DNA of 58,185 nt from Parietichytrium sp. I65-24A (taxonomy: Eukaryota > Sar > Bigyra > Thraustochytrida > Thraustochytriidae), in contig BLSF01000115.1 in the NCBI GenBank assembly GCA_012862575.1, positions 1 to 58,185 on the forward strand, written 5' to 3'. A program made the translations under genes and the position numbers. Positions within the stretch are counted from its first letter, which is position 1. Each line of letters begins with the position of its first letter. The notes under the pieces are model-generated. The model did no database searches, was not told where the DNA came from, and was given only the letters and a program-made list of their open reading frames with translations. Shown here piece by piece: positions 9,948 to 48,735 of the stretch.

Positions 9948-11837
9948 ATGAAGATCTTTCAGCGGAAGCGCAGCTCGAAGAGCTTGAAGAAGGGCGAAGG
10001 ATCGGGGTCCTTGTCTGGTGCCGGATATGCCCCGAAGCCTGCAAATAGAGAGCTCGAGCTCAATCCGGAAGAGGAAAGCAGGATCTTTGGGCTGTTGCCT
10101 GTCGTGGTGGGGCGATTGAGGCAAGAAGATGCGTTGACAGAGGATAATCTCTTCTTGAAAAAGAGCAGGGACACGGCCATGGATCCGCAAGCAGCTCGTG
10201 CAACGAACAAGATGGCCGCCACAACTCTGTGCAGCCACATGTCGAACCCCGATCCTGTGCTTGCCAGTTATGACGTGCATGTCTGGGCGAACGTCCTCAA
10301 GTTGTTCTTGAAGGAGATGAAGAACCCTTTGATTCCGCAGCACCTGGCGCAGGTACTCGTTACGAGGGACTTTAACAATCTTGATGTGCAAACCATCTGC
10401 AAACAAGCCGCGAACGACTTGCCGCATAAAAATTTTGAGATTCTCCGCGACATCTGCTTACTACTAAGGGACTGCTCCACGGACTCGGTCCGTCTTGCGC
10501 ACTCCTTCAGTGCAATTCTATTCAGTCCGCCGGAGAGCGAGGGAGTCTTGGACTCGACGACCATGATTCGCCAGGCGGAGGCAATGACGAATCTTATGAA
10601 ATGTCTAATCACGGAGGCAAGTAATATATTCGACGTGGGAGACGGGTACGTTCCCCCGCCAGTTCGTGAGCCCGTGGCGTCCGCTGTGGGTTACTACATC
10701 AGCCCGACAATGGGTAACAACCACAAAACGACTACTTCTGAGCCAAAGAATGCGCCGCTGTTGTCTCAGCCATATACAGCAAGCACATCGACATCTTCGT
10801 CATCAAATGCTTGGTTCGTGACCTCCTTGTATGCTTACGATGCTGTGGAAGAGGATGAGCTCGACTTTCAGGAGGGTGAGCGCATAAAGGTGCTAGAGCG
10901 GATCAGCGATGATTGGTACCGTGGCGAGAAGACGCTGCCTGGCGGTGGAACTGTTTCAGGGCTTTTTCCTGGAACCTTTTGCGGACTTTCTGGAGAGGAT
11001 GGCCCAAGCAAGGACATTGGCGTCCAGGATATTAACAAGACAGAGCTCGCTCAGGTGGAAGTGGAGGCGGAGGCGGGGGCGGAGGATGGGGATTCTCAGT
11101 ACGTGGTTGCCTTGTACGATTTTGATGCTGCTCACTCGGTGGAGCTGTCCCTTCGCGCAGGGGAATACGTCAAGTTGCTGAATACCTCAGTTCCTGACGA
11201 TTGGTGGTTTGGCGAGAATGTGGAGGGCCAGCAGGGGCTATTTCCCCGGAGTTATGTTGAAGCCGCCAATCCCTCACCCGCTCCAGTGAGCACCATTTCA
11301 GCTGACCCATATGTAATATCCGATGATTTGCTCGTCCGCGGCAGCCCAACGGCGGCAAAGCCAACTTTGAGCGAGCTTGCTCCGCCGCCGCCCTCGCGGC
11401 AGACGGAGCCTGGGGCTATTCTTTTGAATCATGTTACGGAAACCTTCAAAATGCAGCCCACAAATCCCCCGTCATCTTCCGGGGTGCAAGCGTCCGTTCC
11501 TTCCTCCAGCGACGCTGCACCCAAACAGTGGAAGATCACCAAAGATAGGTATTCGCTGTGTTACAAGTTTTTCCTAAAGCTCTCGGTGGACGAGAACGGG
11601 AGCAAATATGTGCGTGGAAAGGACGCGGGCGAGTTCTTGCTGAAGTCCAAACTCTCCATGGCCACGGTTGCCCGAATCCTCGAGCTCGCCGATATTGACC
11701 GTGACGAACGTCTGGATCGAGACGAGTTCATCGTAGCGCACCATCTCGCCATATGTATCAGCAAGGAAGGCATGCCGGAGCCTTCTGTTTTGCCATCCTA
11801 TCTCATTCCCAAGGCCAAGCGCGACCTACTCAGATGA
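9948..11837 (+). CDS. RhoGAP-like / SH3 / SH3 / EH domain protein
   Basis: The 629 aa single-exon protein has a striking domain order. Residues about 45-215 resemble a RhoGAP helical domain, including the hallmark VLKLFLKEMKNPLIPQ. The usual Phe-Arg arginine-finger motif is not evident: the region reads NLFLKKSRD. Residues ~285-345 form an SH3 domain (LYAYDAVEEDELDFQEGE; WYRG; LFP). Residues ~383-440 form a second SH3 domain (ALYDFDAAHSVELSLRAGEY; DDWWFGE; LFPRSYV). A Pro/Ser linker leads to a C-terminal Eps15-homology (EH) domain (~525-620) with an EF-hand-like loop (DIDRDERLDRDEF). EH domains bind NPF peptides in endocytic adaptors, and SH3 domains bind proline-rich actin regulators. The likely role is an endocytic or cortical-actin scaffold, with GAP activity doubtful. 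The start ATG lies in a clear leader. The architecture is certain from the domains; the cellular role is inferred. Confidence 0.85.
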   Translation: MKIFQRKRSSKSLKKGEGSGSLSGAGYAPKPANRELELNPEEESRIFGLLPVVVGRLRQEDALTEDNLFLKKSRDTAMDPQAARATNKMAATTLCSHMSNPDPVLASYDVHVWANVLKLFLKEMKNPLIPQHLAQVLVTRDFNNLDVQTICKQAANDLPHKNFEILRDICLLLRDCSTDSVRLAHSFSAILFSPPESEGVLDSTTMIRQAEAMTNLMKCLITEASNIFDVGDGYVPPPVREPVASAVGYYISPTMGNNHKTTTSEPKNAPLLSQPYTASTSTSSSSNAWFVTSLYAYDAVEEDELDFQEGERIKVLERISDDWYRGEKTLPGGGTVSGLFPGTFCGLSGEDGPSKDIGVQDINKTELAQVEVEAEAGAEDGDSQYVVALYDFDAAHSVELSLRAGEYVKLLNTSVPDDWWFGENVEGQQGLFPRSYVEAANPSPAPVSTISADPYVISDDLLVRGSPTAAKPTLSELAPPPPSRQTEPGAILLNHVTETFKMQPTNPPSSSGVQASVPSSSDAAPKQWKITKDRYSLCYKFFLKLSVDENGSKYVRGKDAGEFLLKSKLSMATVARILELADIDRDERLDRDEFIVAHHLAICISKEGMPEPSVLPSYLIPKAKRDLLR

Positions 11838-35595: not shown

Positions 35596-36960
35596 CCTGC
35601 GCGCGGCGCCTGGCTGCGCCCGACCAATTCAATCTTAGACCAAACTGCAACCACAATCCACCACGCCGCACTCGAACTCTCGAACACTCGAACACTCAAA
35701 CACTCGAACTCTTGAAACCTCGATCACTCGATCACTCGATCACTCGAACTCTTGAAACCTCGAACACTCAATCACTTGAACACTCGAGCCCGCGCCCGTC
35801 TTACTCTCGCCGGCTTGTCAGGTTGCTGCTTCCAGCCTGCCTCGGCCCACACCTCCAAGGACCGGCACGAGCCTTACGGGGCTCACTCTCTGCCGCCACT
35901 GTTCTGCGGAGCGCATATGTGGTGGATGAGTGAGCGAGTGGCGAGTGGATGTGCTTTCGACGTTGTTTGACTATGTTTGACAGCAACTGCAAATCGGTGT
36001 TGTGCTCTTACGGAAATGGCTTTCTCTTTCCGCAATGCTTTCACAGACAATCAATCAATCAATCAATCAATCAAACAAACAAATAAACAAATGAACAAGG
36101 TGAGAAAGTTAACAAATGAGTAAAAATAAACAGGAGAGCGAGCGTTCTTTTGTGTTTGTTGGTTGAAGTGACTGTGAGAAGAGTGAGAAGCACTTCTTCA
36201 AGTTTTCAATGAAAGCAACAGAAAGTGAAGCACTGTCAAGACTGTCAAGTACACGTGCGGACATCACTAGGACTCACCCACCGGCGAATACCACCCGCCA
36301 ACGTGAATTAACGGATTCATCGCCGCACGCGGCAGGCGTTTCGCGTCACTCTGGGTCCATTAGTGACGTCATAATAGTACTCCATCGAAAATGGTAGCAG
36401 TGGCGGATGCTGATATATGTTGATCCGCGAAACGCAATTTGCCTAGCACTGCGTAGAAAGCGTAGAACCCAGCAGTTTCAGCAGGTTCGCCACCCCATTT
36501 CCGCTACGATGGATTCCCTCCCGCGTAAAGTGTCGACGTATGGACTGCAGACTGGACATGATGTTACGCGAACACGAGCCCGCAAGGTGAAACACGTTCA
36601 TTCCGGGATACAGCCGCCGTGCTGAAATAGCTGAAACAGCAGAAATAGAAAGTAACTGGTCCGCGGCGAGTACCCCTGTGTCAATACAGTGTGCGCGGGG
36701 ACTGATAGTTCAGCTTGCGTCTGATCGCACAAGACCGCACAGCGCAATTGAGAGCTGGCGCGCAAGTGTTTGTGACGGACGACGGAAAGTTCAAGTTGAG
36801 AGGTTCGGTTGATCGAAAAACTGAAAAACTGAAAAACTGAAAATCTGAAAGTCTGGAAAACTGAAAATCTGAAAGTCTGAAAGTCTGAAATCTGCAAGGG
36901 ATAGAGTAGGAGGAGGGTTTGGATTACTTGCAAAGTAGTGTAGATACAAAGAGTGAGAAC
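35596..36960. other. Divergent intergenic region with minisatellite
   Basis: It starts with a CTCGAACA-type minisatellite in the channel leader (35660-35790), followed by an AATC microsatellite (36047-36075). Near 36815-36895 repeated CTGAAAATCTGAAAGTCTGAAA words lie in the leader of the multi-SH3 gene. No gene is supported. Confidence 0.5.
35660..35790 (+). repeat. CTCGAACA / CTCGATCA minisatellite
   Basis: Roughly fifteen 7-9-base units (CTCGAACA, CTCGATCA, CTCAATCA), interrupted twice by the same longer unit (CTCGAACTCTTGAAACCTCGA). It lies 65-195 bases upstream of the channel start codon. Confidence 0.9.
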
Positions 36961-39876
36961 ATGTCGGAGCTGGCCGCCATTCTCGCGAAGAGGCGGCAGA
37001 AAAATGGCGAAGAGCCCAAGTCTCCGGCGACTGCTCCTCGGGAGGGAAGCGCTGGCGCAACGGTAGGTGTTTCGAGCCAGGGTGGAGGCCCGTGCTCTGA
37101 TTTCCGCATGGATGTGACGGGGGACTTTGGTAAGTGCAAATGCGGATACCCGAAATCGGAGCACAAATCTACCGCATGCAGCAGCCGACCGTCCTCGATG
37201 GTTTCGACAAAGTCAGTGGCGTCTGCAAGCTCAGCAGCTCCAGGTCACTCATCCTTCCGAGCTAGTCCGAGTCAGCAGAGTCAAACGACACAAGAGACAC
37301 CCGGAAAAGATTTTCAGCAGGGAAAGCAAATTTCAAACGCGCCATCCAAAGCGTGCGACGAGTATACTCTGGATGTCACGGCAGCAAAATTTGGGTCTTG
37401 TAAATGCGGGTTCCCAAAGGCCGAGCACTCCAGGGACGCGTCACTGGGGCGGAGATCTAGCGCCAAATTATCTACCAAGCAAAAGTCCATCAAGCTCATG
37501 GTGCCTCAGGTGAACGGAGGCAGCGATGCTGGAAAGTCGAGGGCTACCGAACAGAATGACCCACCCGTGGAATCTGACAAGGCCGAAATGCCCGCTGTGC
37601 TGGAGCCTGAGGTAGTAGAAACTCGAGGCGAGTCGGAGAAGAAGAAGGTTGCCAGGGTGCTGGCACTGTATGATTTCAACTCCTCAGAGGGCGACCTCTG
37701 TCTAAAGCAAGGCGACGTTGTCGAGGTTTTGGACGACTCGAATGAAGGTTGGTGGGTAGGTCGTATCGGCAAGCGCGAAGGCATGTTTCCTGCAAACTAC
37801 GTGCAGCGAATCCCAGACGTTGTGCCTGAAGCAGGTACGCCGAAGCCTCCTGCCAGAGGAAACGATAAGGTTTTGGCGTCTGCGGCGAGCGGTCAAGAAA
37901 CAATGAAAGTTGATGCACCGAGCAACGAGCAGCGTCAAGGTGCTGGAAAAAGTGATTTGCTTACTATTAAGAAGAAGTTCGACAAGAGCGATGGCTCTGT
38001 TCCCACGCCAAAGGACCACCGCGGGCGAGCCAATCCTTTGGAAGCAAAGAGCCCGCGCAAGGAGCTCACTACGGGCAAAGACATTAAACCTGTACCGAAG
38101 AATAAAGTGCGCGCACTGTATGATTTCGCGGCGCCTGAAAAAGGCGACCTGAAATTCAAGCAAGGCGATGTCTTGACTGTGCGAAGTGAGGTGAACGAGG
38201 ACTGGTGGGAAGGGGAGCGAGAGGATGGCGCGATTGGCGTATTTCCGAGCAATTATGTGGAGAAGCTCGTCATTAGCAGTCAATCGGCTGCCGAGGAGGA
38301 GAGTGCTGGCGTCGTTGCCACAGTAGCTGACTCCTCGGCTCGCACGCATTCGGAGGAAACGCAAATTTCATTTGCTGAGCGCAAGAAAAGACTTTTGGAG
38401 CAGAATGGATCGGTTATAGGGGGATCCCTGAACCCTATCGATACATCAAGGAATCAAGTGCCGTTGGAGGGACCGCCGCCTCAAGCAGAGGCAAATACAG
38501 CAGAGGTTCGCGTTAGAGCAATCGATAACTTTCCTGCGCACGAGGCGGGCGATTTGGGTTTTGATCGCGGCGACGAAATTCTTGTCTTGAGCGAGGTTGA
38601 CGAGAACTGGTATTATGGGCGAGTCATTAAGGGAGCAGCGGCTGGCCCTTCGGAGGGGATCTTTCCAAAGAACTTTGTTGAAGCTATCCACGCGCAAACA
38701 AAGCCGGCGGCATCACAACGGCATGCCAAGAACGAAGCTCTCTCTGAGCCGCCTCCACCTCCTCCACCACCGCCTCCGCCTGGAGCTTCTAATTCGCCGG
38801 CCTCGGAACTCTCCACACCACAAGGACTTCCGCCGCCCCCACCTCCACCACCTCCGCCCCCTGCTGTCACGGCGGCAGGCGGCGCTCCACCACCTCCTCC
38901 ACCTGTATCCGGACAGCGGAAGGAGATTCGATTGGAGCCCGGTTTTTCCAAAGGAGAGATTGAAAGAGCCCCAACGCTGAATTCGCAAAAGCCACCAGCG
39001 CCGTGGTATACCCCCGGAGACACGTACTCGTGCTCTGTGAAAGTTCAAAGTGGGGGATTCCAGTCCACAAAAGGTGGACAAGTCAAATTCGAGACTTTTG
39101 AAATTGTGAAAGGAGATCGTACCAAAGTTAAACTAGAGCTCTCCCAGTCGCTGGACTCACCAGTGGCTACTTATCATGCAGATGTCACCCTATTCGAGCG
39201 TCCCCCAAAGCAGATCCTAGAGCTCTCTTCTCAGAAATTTGGTCCTCAGATTGTGAAATATGGCGAGAGCAAACTTGGGCAGGTTGTTGGGAATGGCGAG
39301 TGCTGGACACTTGCCGACCAAGCTTTAAAATATTGCAAATGCAGCCACGCAGTTGGGAAAAACTTTGGAGCAAAAGTAGAGCTGCCGGAGATTCAGCCCG
39401 GGGACATCTTGCAATTTTTAAGTTGTGTGTTCCGCACAGCTACGTCCATGAAAACCGCTGGCATGCCTGACCATACTGCCATAGTGCTGCGAAGACTTGG
39501 TCCACAGAGTTTTGAAGTCTACGAGCAGAACCCGGGACCGGTAAAAGTGGGCAGCTACGACTTTTCTACACTTGTGCAGGGCTCATTTGATGCATACAGA
39601 CCTCTGCCACCAGATGGCTACAAGGTAGAGGATCTTTTCGTTCCCGCCCCTCAAGCCGCAACTTCCTCGCCTCCACCGCCGCCGCCACCTTCGTCAACAA
39701 CCAATGCTAGATTGTGCGAGGCGTTGTACGACTTTGACCCGGAGACCGATGCCGACTTGGGCTTTCGCCAAGGGGATAGATTGTACCTCGAACAGGAAGA
39801 GAGCGGTTGGGGTAAGGGCTACATGGGTTCTCGCCGAGGAATGTTTCCTCTCAACTATGTCCGTATTTTAAATTAG
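36961..39876 (+). CDS. Bbc1/AIM3-like actin scaffold with four SH3 domains
   Basis: The first ATG (36961) gives 971 aa. The N-terminus MSELAAILAKRRQK resembles the start of fungal actin-patch proteins and a WH2-like basic helix. Two unusual short motifs follow, each with CxCGxPKxEH (KCKCGYPKSEH; SCKCGFPKAEH), possibly metal-binding. SH3 domains lie at about 238-290 (LALYDFNSSEGDLCLKQGD), 382-435 (RALYDFAAPEKGDLKFKQGD), 515-575 and at the very end 916-969 (EALYDFDPETDADLGFRQGD). Between the third and fourth are long poly-proline tracts (profilin/SH3 ligands) and a domain matching the Bbc1/AIM3 cysteine-proteinase-like fold (GNGECWTLADQALKYCKC ... DHTAIVLRRLG ... YEQNPGP), with Cys, His and Asn in order. 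The family regulates Arp2/3-driven endocytic actin patches. No intron. Confidence 0.9.
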   Translation: MSELAAILAKRRQKNGEEPKSPATAPREGSAGATVGVSSQGGGPCSDFRMDVTGDFGKCKCGYPKSEHKSTACSSRPSSMVSTKSVASASSAAPGHSSFRASPSQQSQTTQETPGKDFQQGKQISNAPSKACDEYTLDVTAAKFGSCKCGFPKAEHSRDASLGRRSSAKLSTKQKSIKLMVPQVNGGSDAGKSRATEQNDPPVESDKAEMPAVLEPEVVETRGESEKKKVARVLALYDFNSSEGDLCLKQGDVVEVLDDSNEGWWVGRIGKREGMFPANYVQRIPDVVPEAGTPKPPARGNDKVLASAASGQETMKVDAPSNEQRQGAGKSDLLTIKKKFDKSDGSVPTPKDHRGRANPLEAKSPRKELTTGKDIKPVPKNKVRALYDFAAPEKGDLKFKQGDVLTVRSEVNEDWWEGEREDGAIGVFPSNYVEKLVISSQSAAEEESAGVVATVADSSARTHSEETQISFAERKKRLLEQNGSVIGGSLNPIDTSRNQVPLEGPPPQAEANTAEVRVRAIDNFPAHEAGDLGFDRGDEILVLSEVDENWYYGRVIKGAAAGPSEGIFPKNFVEAIHAQTKPAASQRHAKNEALSEPPPPPPPPPPPGASNSPASELSTPQGLPPPPPPPPPPPAVTAAGGAPPPPPPVSGQRKEIRLEPGFSKGEIERAPTLNSQKPPAPWYTPGDTYSCSVKVQSGGFQSTKGGQVKFETFEIVKGDRTKVKLELSQSLDSPVATYHADVTLFERPPKQILELSSQKFGPQIVKYGESKLGQVVGNGECWTLADQALKYCKCSHAVGKNFGAKVELPEIQPGDILQFLSCVFRTATSMKTAGMPDHTAIVLRRLGPQSFEVYEQNPGPVKVGSYDFSTLVQGSFDAYRPLPPDGYKVEDLFVPAPQAATSSPPPPPPPSSTTNARLCEALYDFDPETDADLGFRQGDRLYLEQEESGWGKGYMGSRRGMFPLNYVRILN

Positions 39877-41594: not shown

Positions 41595-41845
41595 CTTCAC
41601 TCTAGCCCTTCCAGCGACATCGCCCCTCTCACAACTCCCAAGTCAGGTCAGAGTGGCAGCCAAGTGCGCACTTTCGGGGTTTCTCTGAGCGACACGCGCA
41701 AGGTGCGAGCCACGAGGTCCTCTCTCGAGCGTCGAGACGGGAGAGCAGAGCCCAAACTTGAAGAGTTGAAAGTTGACGAGGTTGGACAGAGTTGACAGAG
41801 GAGACTGCGTGTGGGCCAACCCGATTCGTGCAAATCGCGAACGAG

Positions 41846-43441
41846 ATGACGACGGAACTTAAATATCAGCGCGGATTCGCGAACAGCTTTCGCAGCGAGG
41901 CGCTGGAAGGCGCTCTGCCGGAGGGCCAGAACAATCCGCAGACTTGCCCGTACGGACTCTATGCCGAGCAGCTTTCCGGCACGGCGTTCACGGTGCCGAG
42001 GGACCACAACTTGAGGACATGGCTGTACCGCATCCACCCTTCCGTGCAGCATTCGCACATGAGCCCCAGCTCGGTCGGAGGGCTCGGTATGTCGCGCGAC
42101 GAGAAAGAGCGCAAGCTGGAGGTGGATCCGAATCAGATGCGGTGGCAGCCGATGGAGATTCCTGCGAAGGGCGAAAAGGAGGTGAGCTTCTTGCACGGTA
42201 TCATGCACGTGGCACAGGCTGGAGACCCAAATATGAAGAGCGGCTTGGCAGTGTACAACTATGTGTGCAATACTGGCATGGGCAACGATGTGCTCACGAA
42301 CGCGGACGGAGATTTGCTGATTGTGCCCCAGGAAGGCACCCTGATAGTGAAGACGGAGCTTGGTATTATGCGCGTGGAGTCATCGGAGATTTGCGTGGTC
42401 CCTCGCGGCATTCGCTTCACTGTTGACCTCGAAGGAGACCAGGGACGCGGATACATGCTCGAGGTATTCTCTGGACACTTTCGCCTGCCCGACCTCGGCC
42501 CGATTGGCAGCAATGGACTCGCCAACCCCTGGGACTTTGAAACACCTGTGGCCTACTTTGAGGACAAGCAGGAAGAGCACATGATTTACACCAAATTCGC
42601 TGGCAAAATGTTTGAGATGACTCAATCTTTCTCGCCATTCAATGTCGTGGCGTACAACGGCAACTACGTGCCGTACAAATACGACCTGAAAAAGTTTAAC
42701 TGTATGAACTCAGTGACCTATGACCATCCGGATCCGAGCATTTACACAGTTCTTACCTGCCCGTCAAATGAGGCCGGGGTCGCTGTTGCGGACTTTGTGA
42801 TCTTTCCGCCGCGCTGGATGGCTATGGAGCACAGCTTCCGTCCACCTTGGGTAAGTTGTGGTAGTTTGGATATTTGAGCCGTCCAAAACAAGATTGCCAT
42901 ATTAATGATGAGAGATGTTCTAACTCCGTGCTCAGTTTCACCGCAACACAATGTGCGAGTACATGGGTCTCATCAACGGAGTTTACGATGCAAAGAAGGG
43001 TGGCTTCGTACCTGGCGGAAGCAGTCTACACAACACCATGACGCCGCATGGTAAGTTTCGCTGCTAGTTTGTGCCGTATCAATTTTTGTATCTTTCTGAC
43101 GACTAGTGCATGATTATTTCCCTGAACCTGCAGGCCCGGACGCTGAAACGTTTAAGCGTTTCTCCGATCCAAGTCAGGTGGACACCAGCAAGCCAGAGTT
43201 TTTTGACAAAGGTCTTGCATTTATGTTTGAGACCACCTATGTACTATCTCTCACAGAGGCTGCGATCTCGGCTCCAAACCGCGAGCTCACATATCAGGAC
43301 TGCTGGCAGAATATGCCTAACACCTTTACTCCAACAGACGAGGAGAAGGCCAAGGCGACTAGCCAATCTTCAAATTTGCTTGCCTGGCGCGCGGAGTCCG
43401 CAGAAGAGAGTCCGGATGCTAAGAAGCGCAAGCTCAAGTAG
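41846..43441 (+). CDS. HGD: Homogentisate 1,2-dioxygenase, 3 exons
   Basis: This enzyme opens the ring of homogentisate to maleylacetoacetate in tyrosine breakdown, and competes with tocopherol and plastoquinone synthesis for the same substrate. Exons are 41846-42850, 42936-43050 and 43134-43441, with GTAAGT introns of 85 and 83 nt and consistent phases, giving 475 aa (human HGD 445). The ATG at 41846 starts [15 protein letters not shown], matching the family N-terminus. The Fe(II) ligands are in the short middle exon: His and Glu in [12 protein letters not shown] and His in MTPHGPD (the last spans the second junction). Further conserved blocks are [16 protein letters not shown] and [11 protein letters not shown]. 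The C-terminal tail is slightly long and Lys-rich (DAKKRKLK). Identification is secure. Confidence 0.96.
42851..43133 (+). other. Two spliceosomal introns of HGD around a 115-nt exon
   Basis: Intron 1 is 42851-42935 (GTAAGT...CTCAG), intron 2 is 43051-43133 (GTAAGT...TGCAG). They flank the exon that encodes most of the iron site. Confidence 0.9.
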
Positions 43442-45679
43442 TCGTGTCCCGCATCTTGCATGCGTCGAGAACGTCTGTGAGCCCTTTTTTTATTTTGCAC
43501 TCAAACGAAAGCCGTGCGTGTCTTCCCATAACGCTTCGCTTACCTCTAATAATTTATGGAAAAAAATTTCATGCCCATCACCTCTCGATCGCTGTTTTTA
43601 CTATCCACAAGCAATCAAAACTTAGCGCAAAAAGAGCGATGAAACAACACAATCTCTCGCACATTTAACCCTCCGACCTTGCGCACGTACTATGGCGAAG
43701 AAATGGTGCGGCGGTAGGTCCGTCGATGAGCTTTGTTGACATTTATCGCAGTCAACGCGTGGCGTCGCTTCCTCGCGCGTCCATTCACGGCAATTCTCCA
43801 AGTGCGGCGGTGTGCACTTGGTCTTTTCATTGATTGATGTGTCGCACTGTAAGCTGCTTACCCCAAACCTATAGGCGACTCTAACCACTGCGGCCGGGAC
43901 AAGGGACAAGCGAATACGCTGCGGAAGGAAAAGAAGCGAAGCGTCGATATCTGCAACGCTTGAGCAGCTTCTTCTCGCCAGTTTCGAAAAGTAATTAAAA
44001 TATCTTTCAGCGTCTCTCCTACCGATTAAAGTCGATAATCTCGCTGCTCACGCTATTTTCCTCGGGTTGGGTTTTCCTCACCCTGGGTGCCGCATTCTTC
44101 CTCATCAGGTACGCTGGCAGCAGCCTCGTACGGTACGGTTACCGTCACGTGTCCTAGCGCCCCAGCTAAGACGAGCTGGAAATTGAGCGGCAGATGAGAA
44201 AGTACACAGTGCGCTGAGGTCAGCCACATCTTCCTATCCAACATCCCCACCCTCGATCACCGTTGAGCTCAAGCAATCCCTGAACGGAATCCATCAATCC
44301 TGTGATCTTGTGATCCTTTGATCCATCCATTTGTCCATCCATCCAATCCATCCATTCATTCATCCATCCGTCCATCTCCTTCTTTTCTTGCATCTGTCTA
44401 TCGATCTATCTGTTTATCGATGATCGTGAAAATCGTGAAGAGTGAATCTGATTGTTGAGTTTTGACTGGTCCAACTCGTTCCAGGTAAAATCCACCGACA
44501 GCGAACTCTAAGTTCTCAATTCTGAATTCCGAGTGGTAATAACACTGCTTTCATGAGCAGTGGTGAACCAGTGAGAACAAAAACGACTGACTGTGAATGT
44601 TCAATGAAAATCGGGCAAACAAAACTTGGATGATAAAAATTGCGTTGGCAGTTCTGAGATTGAGCTGACTTGGTCAATCAATCATTGATTTGTCAATCAT
44701 TGATTTGTTGAGTTGCTCATTCGTCCTTTCCTACTTACTCCTTACGACGCCGTACAGCGTTTACCCTGGCAAGCAATCACAGTCGCGATCTACGACTTCG
44801 ACTAAGCGTTTAGGCTATTGAATGCTAAGAGCGAGCAGGAGAAGGAAGGACCAAAGGGGTAGGACGTTAATAAGAGGTTGTTAGCTAGGCGGAGCTGCAG
44901 GACTTCGAGTGGGTGAGACTACTGGTTTGTGGTAGTCGTTGTAGGCGTTTTCTGGACGTAGGCCGGTCCTCTCGGAAAAAGAAAACTTGACTTTTCCAAT
45001 TGGAAAACCGGAGCTGGCTAGAACTTATTACCGTGGACAGTAGGCCTCGCTCAGTAGTGTGCAACCACACTCCACTACCGCAGTGCTACCGTTAACCCCA
45101 GGGAACATTTCACCTTCCTTTTGTTCCTCCGGTTCTACCGTTATCCATAGTCCGCCATAAGCCCCCGATCGCATCTATCCCATCACAGCTAGCGTTTACA
45201 CTACCTCGGTGGTACCTGGCAACCCCACCCGCCAGAACGACTCGCCTAGTAGCTCGCTATCGTCCTCCTACTGAAACATCGGCGCAAGAACCCCAGAGGG
45301 TGACTCGAGGGCGCCTCTCGCGGACTTAGTCTCAATCGGTGGGAAGGAGAGTTTGGTGCTTTCAGGCTACTAGCTAGACACTGCTTTGCACGACTCGAGA
45401 GGGGTACGCGGCGCGGACAGACTCATCGCCGAGGACAGCACGGGAGGGCAGGACAGGACAGGGCGACTCCGGAAAGCGGCGCTCTCTCCAAATCACGTGC
45501 CACCCAGCTCTTTTGTGAGGGCGGAGACAGAAAACACAGAAAACAAAGACACTCGACCTGTACCTCCGCAGGCTTGCTTGTTCACTTTGCTCGCGGGAGC
45601 TCCGGTGGTGGGACGCTTTTGGTACGCGGGGACGCTAGTGGGACGCTGGTGGGACGCTAGTGGGACGGGGAGCGGCAGG
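43442..45679. other. Intergenic region, repeat-containing
   Basis: No supported gene over 2.2 kb. About 44285-44400 is built of ATCCATCC/ATTC-type words. 44670-44715 has a duplicated TCAATCATTGATTTG. The kinase leader has a CGAGGACA copy (45430-45437) and a GGGACGCTAGT-type short repeat (45610-45670) just before the ATG. Confidence 0.4.
45430..45437 (+). promoter_or_regulatory. CGAGGACA motif copy
   Basis: Copy of the recurrent 8-mer, 250 bases upstream of the kinase ATG. Confidence 0.3.
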
Positions 45680-48223: not shown

Positions 48224-48537
48224 AAGATTTTTTTTCCCCTCAAATCTATCGAAAAGAAAAAAAGGTTTCTCTTTTTTATCTCTTCCTTTCCCGCCCACCC
48301 CACCTTCCGTTTACGCTGCACTTCGTGGCTTCACGTACTGTTTCCGCCGTCATTCTTTTTCGCGCAAGACACAGAAACATTACCGCTCCCGCTAAATCTT
48401 TCATACGACCTTCACTATGCGACTTAGTGCGTTGCGTAGAACCTTGTAGCAAAATGGAGGGTACCCAAGGTTTATAATCCATTATGATGTGACCAAATGG
48501 TGCAATGGTGGTCGCTAATAGTAGCGCTACATTGATT
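48224..48537. other. Spacer
   Basis: Kinase 3' UTR followed by an unremarkable stretch. A short palindrome GTAGCGCTAC lies at about 48521, shortly before the tRNA candidate. Confidence 0.4.
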
Positions 48538-48692
48538 GCTCTCGTAACTCAGTGGTTAGAGTGTCTGGCTTATGACCAGAAAGTCGTGAGTGTACGTTAT
48601 GGAACAACCAATCCGTCTCCGTTACGCACAGTCCTGATTTCGAATCCTAACTCCTGATTTCAATGATACGCAGTCAAACCTCACCTGGAGCA
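48538..48692 (+). tRNA. Candidate tRNA-Ile(UAU) split by an 82-nt intron in the T loop
   Basis: 48538-48591 reads as a tRNA up to the first T-loop base. It comprises acceptor strand GCTCTCG, T8 A9, D arm ACTC-AGTGGTTA-GAGT, anticodon arm TCTGG-CTTATGA-CCAGA (5 perfect pairs, anticodon UAU), a 5-nt variable loop and T-stem strand GTGAG. The rest, TCAAAC CTCAC CTGGAGC A, appears at 48674-48692. Rejoined, the T arm is GTGAG-TTCAAAC-CTCAC with five perfect pairs and a canonical 7-nt loop. The acceptor pairs at 6 of 7 positions (one wobble, one C-U mismatch). The A box TAACTCAGTGG is intact. Introns outside the anticodon loop and rearranged tRNAs are known in red algae. Odd: G at position 37 instead of the A expected next to U36. 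A tRNA pseudogene is the alternative. Confidence 0.65.
48592..48673 (+). other. Ectopic tRNA intron (T loop)
   Basis: 82 nt between T54 and T55 of the tRNA candidate. It contains a B-box-like TTCGAATCC (48649-48657) flanked by a 10-nt direct repeat TCCTGATTTC. Exact ends are uncertain by a base or two. Confidence 0.5.
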
Positions 48693-48728
48693 CTTCCCCA
48701 ATGGGGCCGTGGGTGGTTACCCGCGATC

Positions 48729-48735
48729 TTTTTTT
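48729..48735 (+). terminator. Pol III T-run terminator
   Basis: Seven T residues, 37 bases after the tRNA candidate, with a second T7 at about 48751. This fits RNA polymerase III termination. Confidence 0.5.

Follow-up and report, generated by a model that had tools for sequence, protein, structure and literature searches.

Introns of nuclear tRNA genes are removed by an endonuclease-ligase pathway and spliceosomal introns are found mostly in Pol II transcripts, with few noncoding exceptions such as U6, whose snRNA genes do contain spliceosomal introns in some fungi. The systems closest to the locus described here are the ectopic tRNA introns of red algae and nucleomorphs. The tRNA-Ile(UAU) of C. 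merolae has introns at positions 12/13, 37/38 and 53/54 (PMC9602550), and recognition of a bulge-helix-bulge (BHB) by the tRNA endonuclease is invoked for the tRNA introns of this species (PMC3978253, PMC4090602). In the nucleomorph of Guillardia theta, the same sources describe ectopic tRNA introns of 3-24 nt, at sites that include the T arm, whose excision was seen by RT-PCR (PMC4090602, PMC3978253).

The window studied here is a stretch of 58,185 nt, a complete contig within an assembly that totals 42.5 Mb in 172 contigs, and its forward strand harbours two parts that together make up a tRNA. The first (48538..48591), identified from the sequence, by Rfam and by ARAGORN on the joined form, extends from the 5' strand of the acceptor (GCTCTCG) to T54 and comprises a D stem paired 4/4 (ACTC/GAGT), an anticodon stem paired 5/5 (TCTGG/CCAGA) that encloses the loop CTTATGA with the anticodon TAT (48571-48573), and the T stem strand GTGAG. 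The second (48674..48692) extends from T55 to the discriminator A73 and consists, in this order, of TCAAAC, CTCAC, CTGGAGC and A73. Their joining yields an RNA of 73 nt in which the T stem is paired in all five positions and the acceptor in six of seven (five Watson-Crick pairs and one U5-G68 wobble, besides one C6-U67 mismatch). ARAGORN calls this molecule tRNA-Ile(UAU) (tat), i.e. removal of the insert gives a cloverleaf with a single acceptor mismatch, and it can be aligned to the yeast and human tRNA-Ile(UAU). An earlier note, made from the sequence alone, had claimed canonical arms up to T54, a five-of-five T stem and six of seven acceptor pairs completed by 48674-48692, and hence a tRNA-Ile(UAU) gene with its intron at T54/T55; its coordinates for the tRNA parts and the insert are all correct, the pairing is reproduced on the joined form and the intron is supported. 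What it left unmentioned is position 37, where an A was looked for beside U36 and a G was found. Ile tRNAs carry A37, for t6A. By minimum energy, moreover, the 73-mer does not fold into a cloverleaf, a behaviour that is common for unmodified tRNA sequences.

In its unspliced form the locus is invisible to ARAGORN, which returns no tRNA across the whole window, while the Rfam tRNA model covers just the initial 55 nt (48538-48592, at 37.8 bits) and aligns it as a molecule without a T arm. A T-armless tRNA ending at 48592 is nonetheless ruled out because 48674-48692 provides both the T arm and the acceptor. A circularly permuted tRNA is ruled out as well, since the 5' half precedes the 3' half. 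Could the 3' completion be fortuitous, the locus being a tRNA fragment with an unrelated match downstream, or a dead gene with a random insertion? Calculated analytically, the probability of an equally good completion is 7.8e-7 at any one position and ~2e-4 within 300 nt, and the corresponding test was passed at 2 of 367,468 positions, one of which is the tRNA-Ile(UAU) locus itself. These figures bear out the view of the earlier note that chance completion is unlikely. The one other position that passes speaks for coincidence; against it, the splice signals described below occur, independently, at exactly the tRNA junctions, and we regard coincidence as highly improbable.

The insert (48592..48673, + strand, 82 nt) starts with GT at 48592 and finishes with AG at 48673, so that GT-AG falls exactly on the exon junctions, which cannot be slid (a T in the exon stands opposite a G in the intron on both sides). 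These ends had been set in the earlier note by tRNA positions 54/55 with no consideration of splice signals. The complete pattern is GTACGTT...CTAAC-22 nt-CAG, in which CTAAC (48647..48651), 22 nt before the intron end, is a candidate branch site by comparison with introns of the same genome. In a de novo scan of open reading frames, which served for leads only, CTAAC was not enriched (7 matches, compared with 30 for CTGAC and 13-33 for five permuted versions), and none of the four candidates from a coding-score scan had a branch motif. The comparison set was built instead on protein homology, judged by eye and in one gene additionally by Pfam, which placed the ends of nine introns. Two interrupt a homogentisate 1,2-dioxygenase gene within the window (41792-43625), at 42851-42935 and 43051-43133, and Pfam covers both domains of the joined protein in full length; one is in epsilon-tubulin (L061) and six, visible as gaps separating Pfam matches, are in CCT chaperonin genes (L068-L073). 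Their donors are GTAAGT in 8/9 and GTACGT in the remaining one (L070), with T as the following base in 8/9. Within 8-45 nt upstream of the intron end, the range searched, the branch motif is CTAAC in 5/9, CTGAC in 3/9 and TTAAC in 1/9, while the acceptor is CAG in 7/9 and TAG in 2/9 and lengths range from 71 to 217 nt.

In donor, branch motif, acceptor and length the insert fits these nine introns, its GTACGTT being found again in L070 and its CTAAC at 22 nt in epsilon-tubulin. When the insert was shuffled 1,000,000 times, 2,204 shuffles had GT..AG, 12 also had GTA[AC]GT and YAG and 3 had the branch motif too, and among 364,066 nuclear 82-mers (the locus included) the counts were 1,314 for GT..AG, 2 for GTA[AC]GT..YAG and 1 with CTRAC in addition, the motif sets for both tests having been written after the insert was known. 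Judged by its signals, then, the insert looks like a spliceosomal intron of its own genome, a likeness absent from the earlier note. There are competing motifs, a donor-like GTGAGT formed by the T stem and T54 (48586-48591), which could compete with GTACGT six bases downstream, and a CAG at 48629. As further observations on the same stretch, the intron has two copies of TCCTGATTTC at a spacing of 20 nt (48632-48661), and TCCTAACTC at the branch site is similar to TCGTAACTC at the tRNA D stem. A multi-copy mobile intron is ruled out, the 361-bp region matching itself alone.

The earlier note had seen the insert in a red-algal frame and had suggested that the precursor be folded in search of a BHB. 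If it were an ectopic tRNA intron like those of red algae and nucleomorphs, the tRNA splicing endonuclease would cut it out and a ligase would seal the exons, and the GT-AG, donor and branch motifs would be coincidental. Precedent exists in C. merolae, where the T arm is interrupted at 53/54 in the same isoacceptor (PMC9602550) and at 55/56 in tRNA-Gly(CCC) (PMC3978253). A strict BHB, sought at the junctions for two topologies with two cleavage registers, does not form: the central helix has 3, 3, 1 and 2 of 4 pairs, and the one register in which the complete T stem flanks it is that with 1/4 central pairs. One register has 3/4 central and 3/5 inner pairs, and relaxed BHB-like forms may exist; the fold of the precursor is ordinary (z -1.28). 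The missing strict BHB is not decisive by itself, because a defined BHB is also missing in many nucleomorph ectopic introns (PMC3978253). It is the rarity of the splice-signal match in the shuffles (the 3 in 1,000,000 above) and among the nuclear 82-mers that, together with the poor central helix, makes the endonuclease route improbable.

The host itself also argues against the red-algal frame. A contig of 39,303 bp (C141, loci L057-L060) is mitochondrial by eye, as it bears cox1, cox2, cox3, cob, nad2, nad7 and other genes, and ARAGORN finds 21 tRNAs on it, including tRNA-Leu(CAA) and tRNA-Leu(UAG). No tRNA-Leu(UAA) was found on this contig by ARAGORN, part of the contig reading N, which could hide one. 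Six of its genes (cox1 being a partial stretch) have eight TTA codons in all, each of them either upstream of the first Met or among the final 20 codons of the open frame. This is consistent with the use of TTA as a stop codon, as in the Thraustochytrium mitochondrial code. The pattern of TTA codons and tRNA-Leu therefore points to a labyrinthulomycete as the most likely host and not to a red alga, an origin rejected because neither a tRNA-Leu(UAA) on this contig nor any inner TTA in the six genes was found.

The intron splits the B box at its usual place, so that an intact internal B box is not found. The best nearby site is ATTTCGAATCC, a weak B-box-like sequence within the intron (48637..48647, + strand) with 8/10 consensus bases. 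Matches this good occur at 159 of 368,494 positions and hence by chance in ~3% of 82-nt stretches, so that a substitute B box is a mere suggestion. Downstream, a 7-bp hairpin with a T7 run (48708..48735, + strand) is a possible Pol III terminator. The T7 (48729-48735), 37 nt past the tRNA, is the first run of at least four T past the tRNA start, there being no such run in 48361-48728. The hairpin itself is no evidence, because its count is at chance level (one hairpin plus T run in the region vs a shuffle mean of 0.8) and its fold, with a z of -1.88, is stable yet within chance. The tRNA gene is located in a gap of ~1 kb between the end of a kinase ORF (48223) and the first in-frame ATG of the next ORF (49231), all on the + strand. 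Elsewhere in the window, 9948-11837 and 36919-39876 encode proteins with several SH3 domains, of which one also has RhoGAP and EH domains and the other an AIM3/BBC1 C-terminal domain. In the assembly, a similar repeat around a common 12-mer is present in five places (L034, L036, L037, L038 and L040), four of them near contig ends (C23, C55, C75 and C144), which is perhaps a subtelomeric family.

A key question is whether the organism has another tRNA-Ile(UAU), since the earlier note had named an intact second gene as a finding that would speak against its proposal. Five different searches of the assembly uncovered none. In BLAST, the 73-mer matched nothing but itself. The 12-mer CTCACCTGGAGC had 10 matches (6 for the reversed control) and a D-loop/anticodon pattern had 6 (control 13), and in both cases the tRNA-Ile(UAU) locus alone was tRNA-like, the 12-mer matches and the other five pattern matches having been judged by eye. 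The D-loop/anticodon pattern works, because its AAU version, used as a positive control, had 10 matches (control 7) of which eight are tRNA-Ile(AAU). An anticodon/T-arm pattern had 6 matches (control 17), with no ARAGORN tRNA among them, and an anticodon arm with A37 and up to three mismatches had 52 (reversed control 54), the best being the tRNA-Ile(UAU) locus and the remainder being assessed from the matched letters only. These negative results apply to an assembly that may be incomplete and to copies other than one with an odd D loop plus an anticodon intron, which could evade the searches; an Rfam search of the assembly scored 63 of 1,347 candidates and cannot decide the matter. In a scan for relatives, a 17-mer had no match in viral contigs. 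As for the arrangement of these genes, the eight tRNA-Ile(AAU) matches, which share one identical 22-nt stretch, form a cluster of 3.4 kb on both strands of one contig (C13:260301-263735), one gene of which is confirmed by ARAGORN. Asn and Glu tRNAs are also clustered by isotype (C20 and C37), and tRNA-Ile(UAU) is solitary.

The main rival explanation accepts the intron and doubts the tRNA. The locus might be a pseudogene or former tRNA embedded in a Pol II transcript, e.g. in an untranslated region, from which a genuine spliceosomal intron is spliced without any product that decodes. G37 and the acceptor mismatch, the split B box and the strand shared with the flanking ORFs, ~1 kb apart, would all fit this view. 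Moreover, AUA might be decoded by tRNA-Ile(AAU) through inosine, so that the eight genes of that type could cover it and the tRNA-Ile(UAU) gene may be dispensable. AUA is uncommon: in 34 of 48 long ORFs it accounts for 73 of the 791 Ile codons, a rough count because some of these ORFs are antisense to real genes. According to a review, such non-canonical introns predicted in eukaryotic tRNAs were mostly deemed pseudogenes among synonymous copies (PMC4090602). Against this, and unlike the situation of those pseudogenes, no other tRNA-Ile(UAU) was found in the assembly; in addition, pairing is complete in the D, anticodon and T stems, and removal of the intron would be exact to the base at T54/T55. 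We consider the pseudogene unlikely, if clearly less so than either the endonuclease route or coincidence.

Two tRNA halves, unambiguous junctions, a match to the intron signals of the host and no second copy found are thus established, and on this sequence evidence the locus is probably a tRNA-Ile(UAU) gene whose T loop is split at T54/T55 by a spliceosomal intron. We infer that it is transcribed, that the spliceosome removes the insert and that the product functions. In such a scheme, a nuclear gene would be transcribed, probably by RNA polymerase III, to a precursor that terminates in the T7 run, 37 nt past the tRNA; the spliceosome would then excise an 82-nt U2-type intron, using the donor GTACGTT, the branch A in CTAAC and the acceptor CAG; its removal would rebuild the T arm; and trimming of the ends plus addition of CCA would give the tRNA. 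G37, the C6-U67 mismatch, the U5-G68 wobble, the interrupted B box and the non-cloverleaf energy fold are counted against function. A bolder proposal, which falls just short of being probable, is that the only tRNA-Ile(UAU) of the organism is matured by the spliceosome, i.e. that Pol III produces an RNA with an mRNA-type intron, and perhaps with a substitute B box, whose T loop cannot exist until splicing has taken place, the decoding of AUA by this tRNA thus depending on pre-mRNA splicing. If true, a spliceosomal intron in a T loop would cross the divide between tRNA introns and spliceosomal introns and would open questions about whether the spliceosome can act on a tRNA precursor, how Pol III deals with a split B box and what failed splicing costs. 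It would also mean that a needed tRNA can escape tRNA finders, as illustrated by the blank that ARAGORN draws on this locus.

How does this locus compare with known systems? An interrupted T arm as such is not new, in view of the 53/54 and 55/56 introns reported for C. merolae; the novel part is the presence of spliceosomal signals at a T-arm position. A search of open-licence papers brought up no nuclear tRNA gene with a spliceosomal intron. The likeness to fungal U6 introns is that of an mRNA-type intron within a noncoding RNA transcribed by Pol III, but the host gene here is a tRNA. There is no second intron-bearing Pol III gene of that kind in this genome, because its U6 has no intron, the full Rfam model being matched uninterrupted. 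With the nucleomorph introns of Guillardia theta, the insert shares a non-canonical position in the T arm, and many of them also have no defined BHB, but they measure 3-24 nt and belong to the reduced nucleus of an endosymbiont, whereas the insert has 82 nt and spliceosomal signals. The closest published case is the tRNA-Ile(UAU) of C. merolae, which is the same isoacceptor, has a T-arm intron one nucleotide off and likewise has its T loop rebuilt by splicing. In contrast to it, the present gene belongs to another host group, has neither a strict BHB nor an intron at 37/38, and displays GT-AG ends together with the donor and branch motifs of spliceosomal introns.
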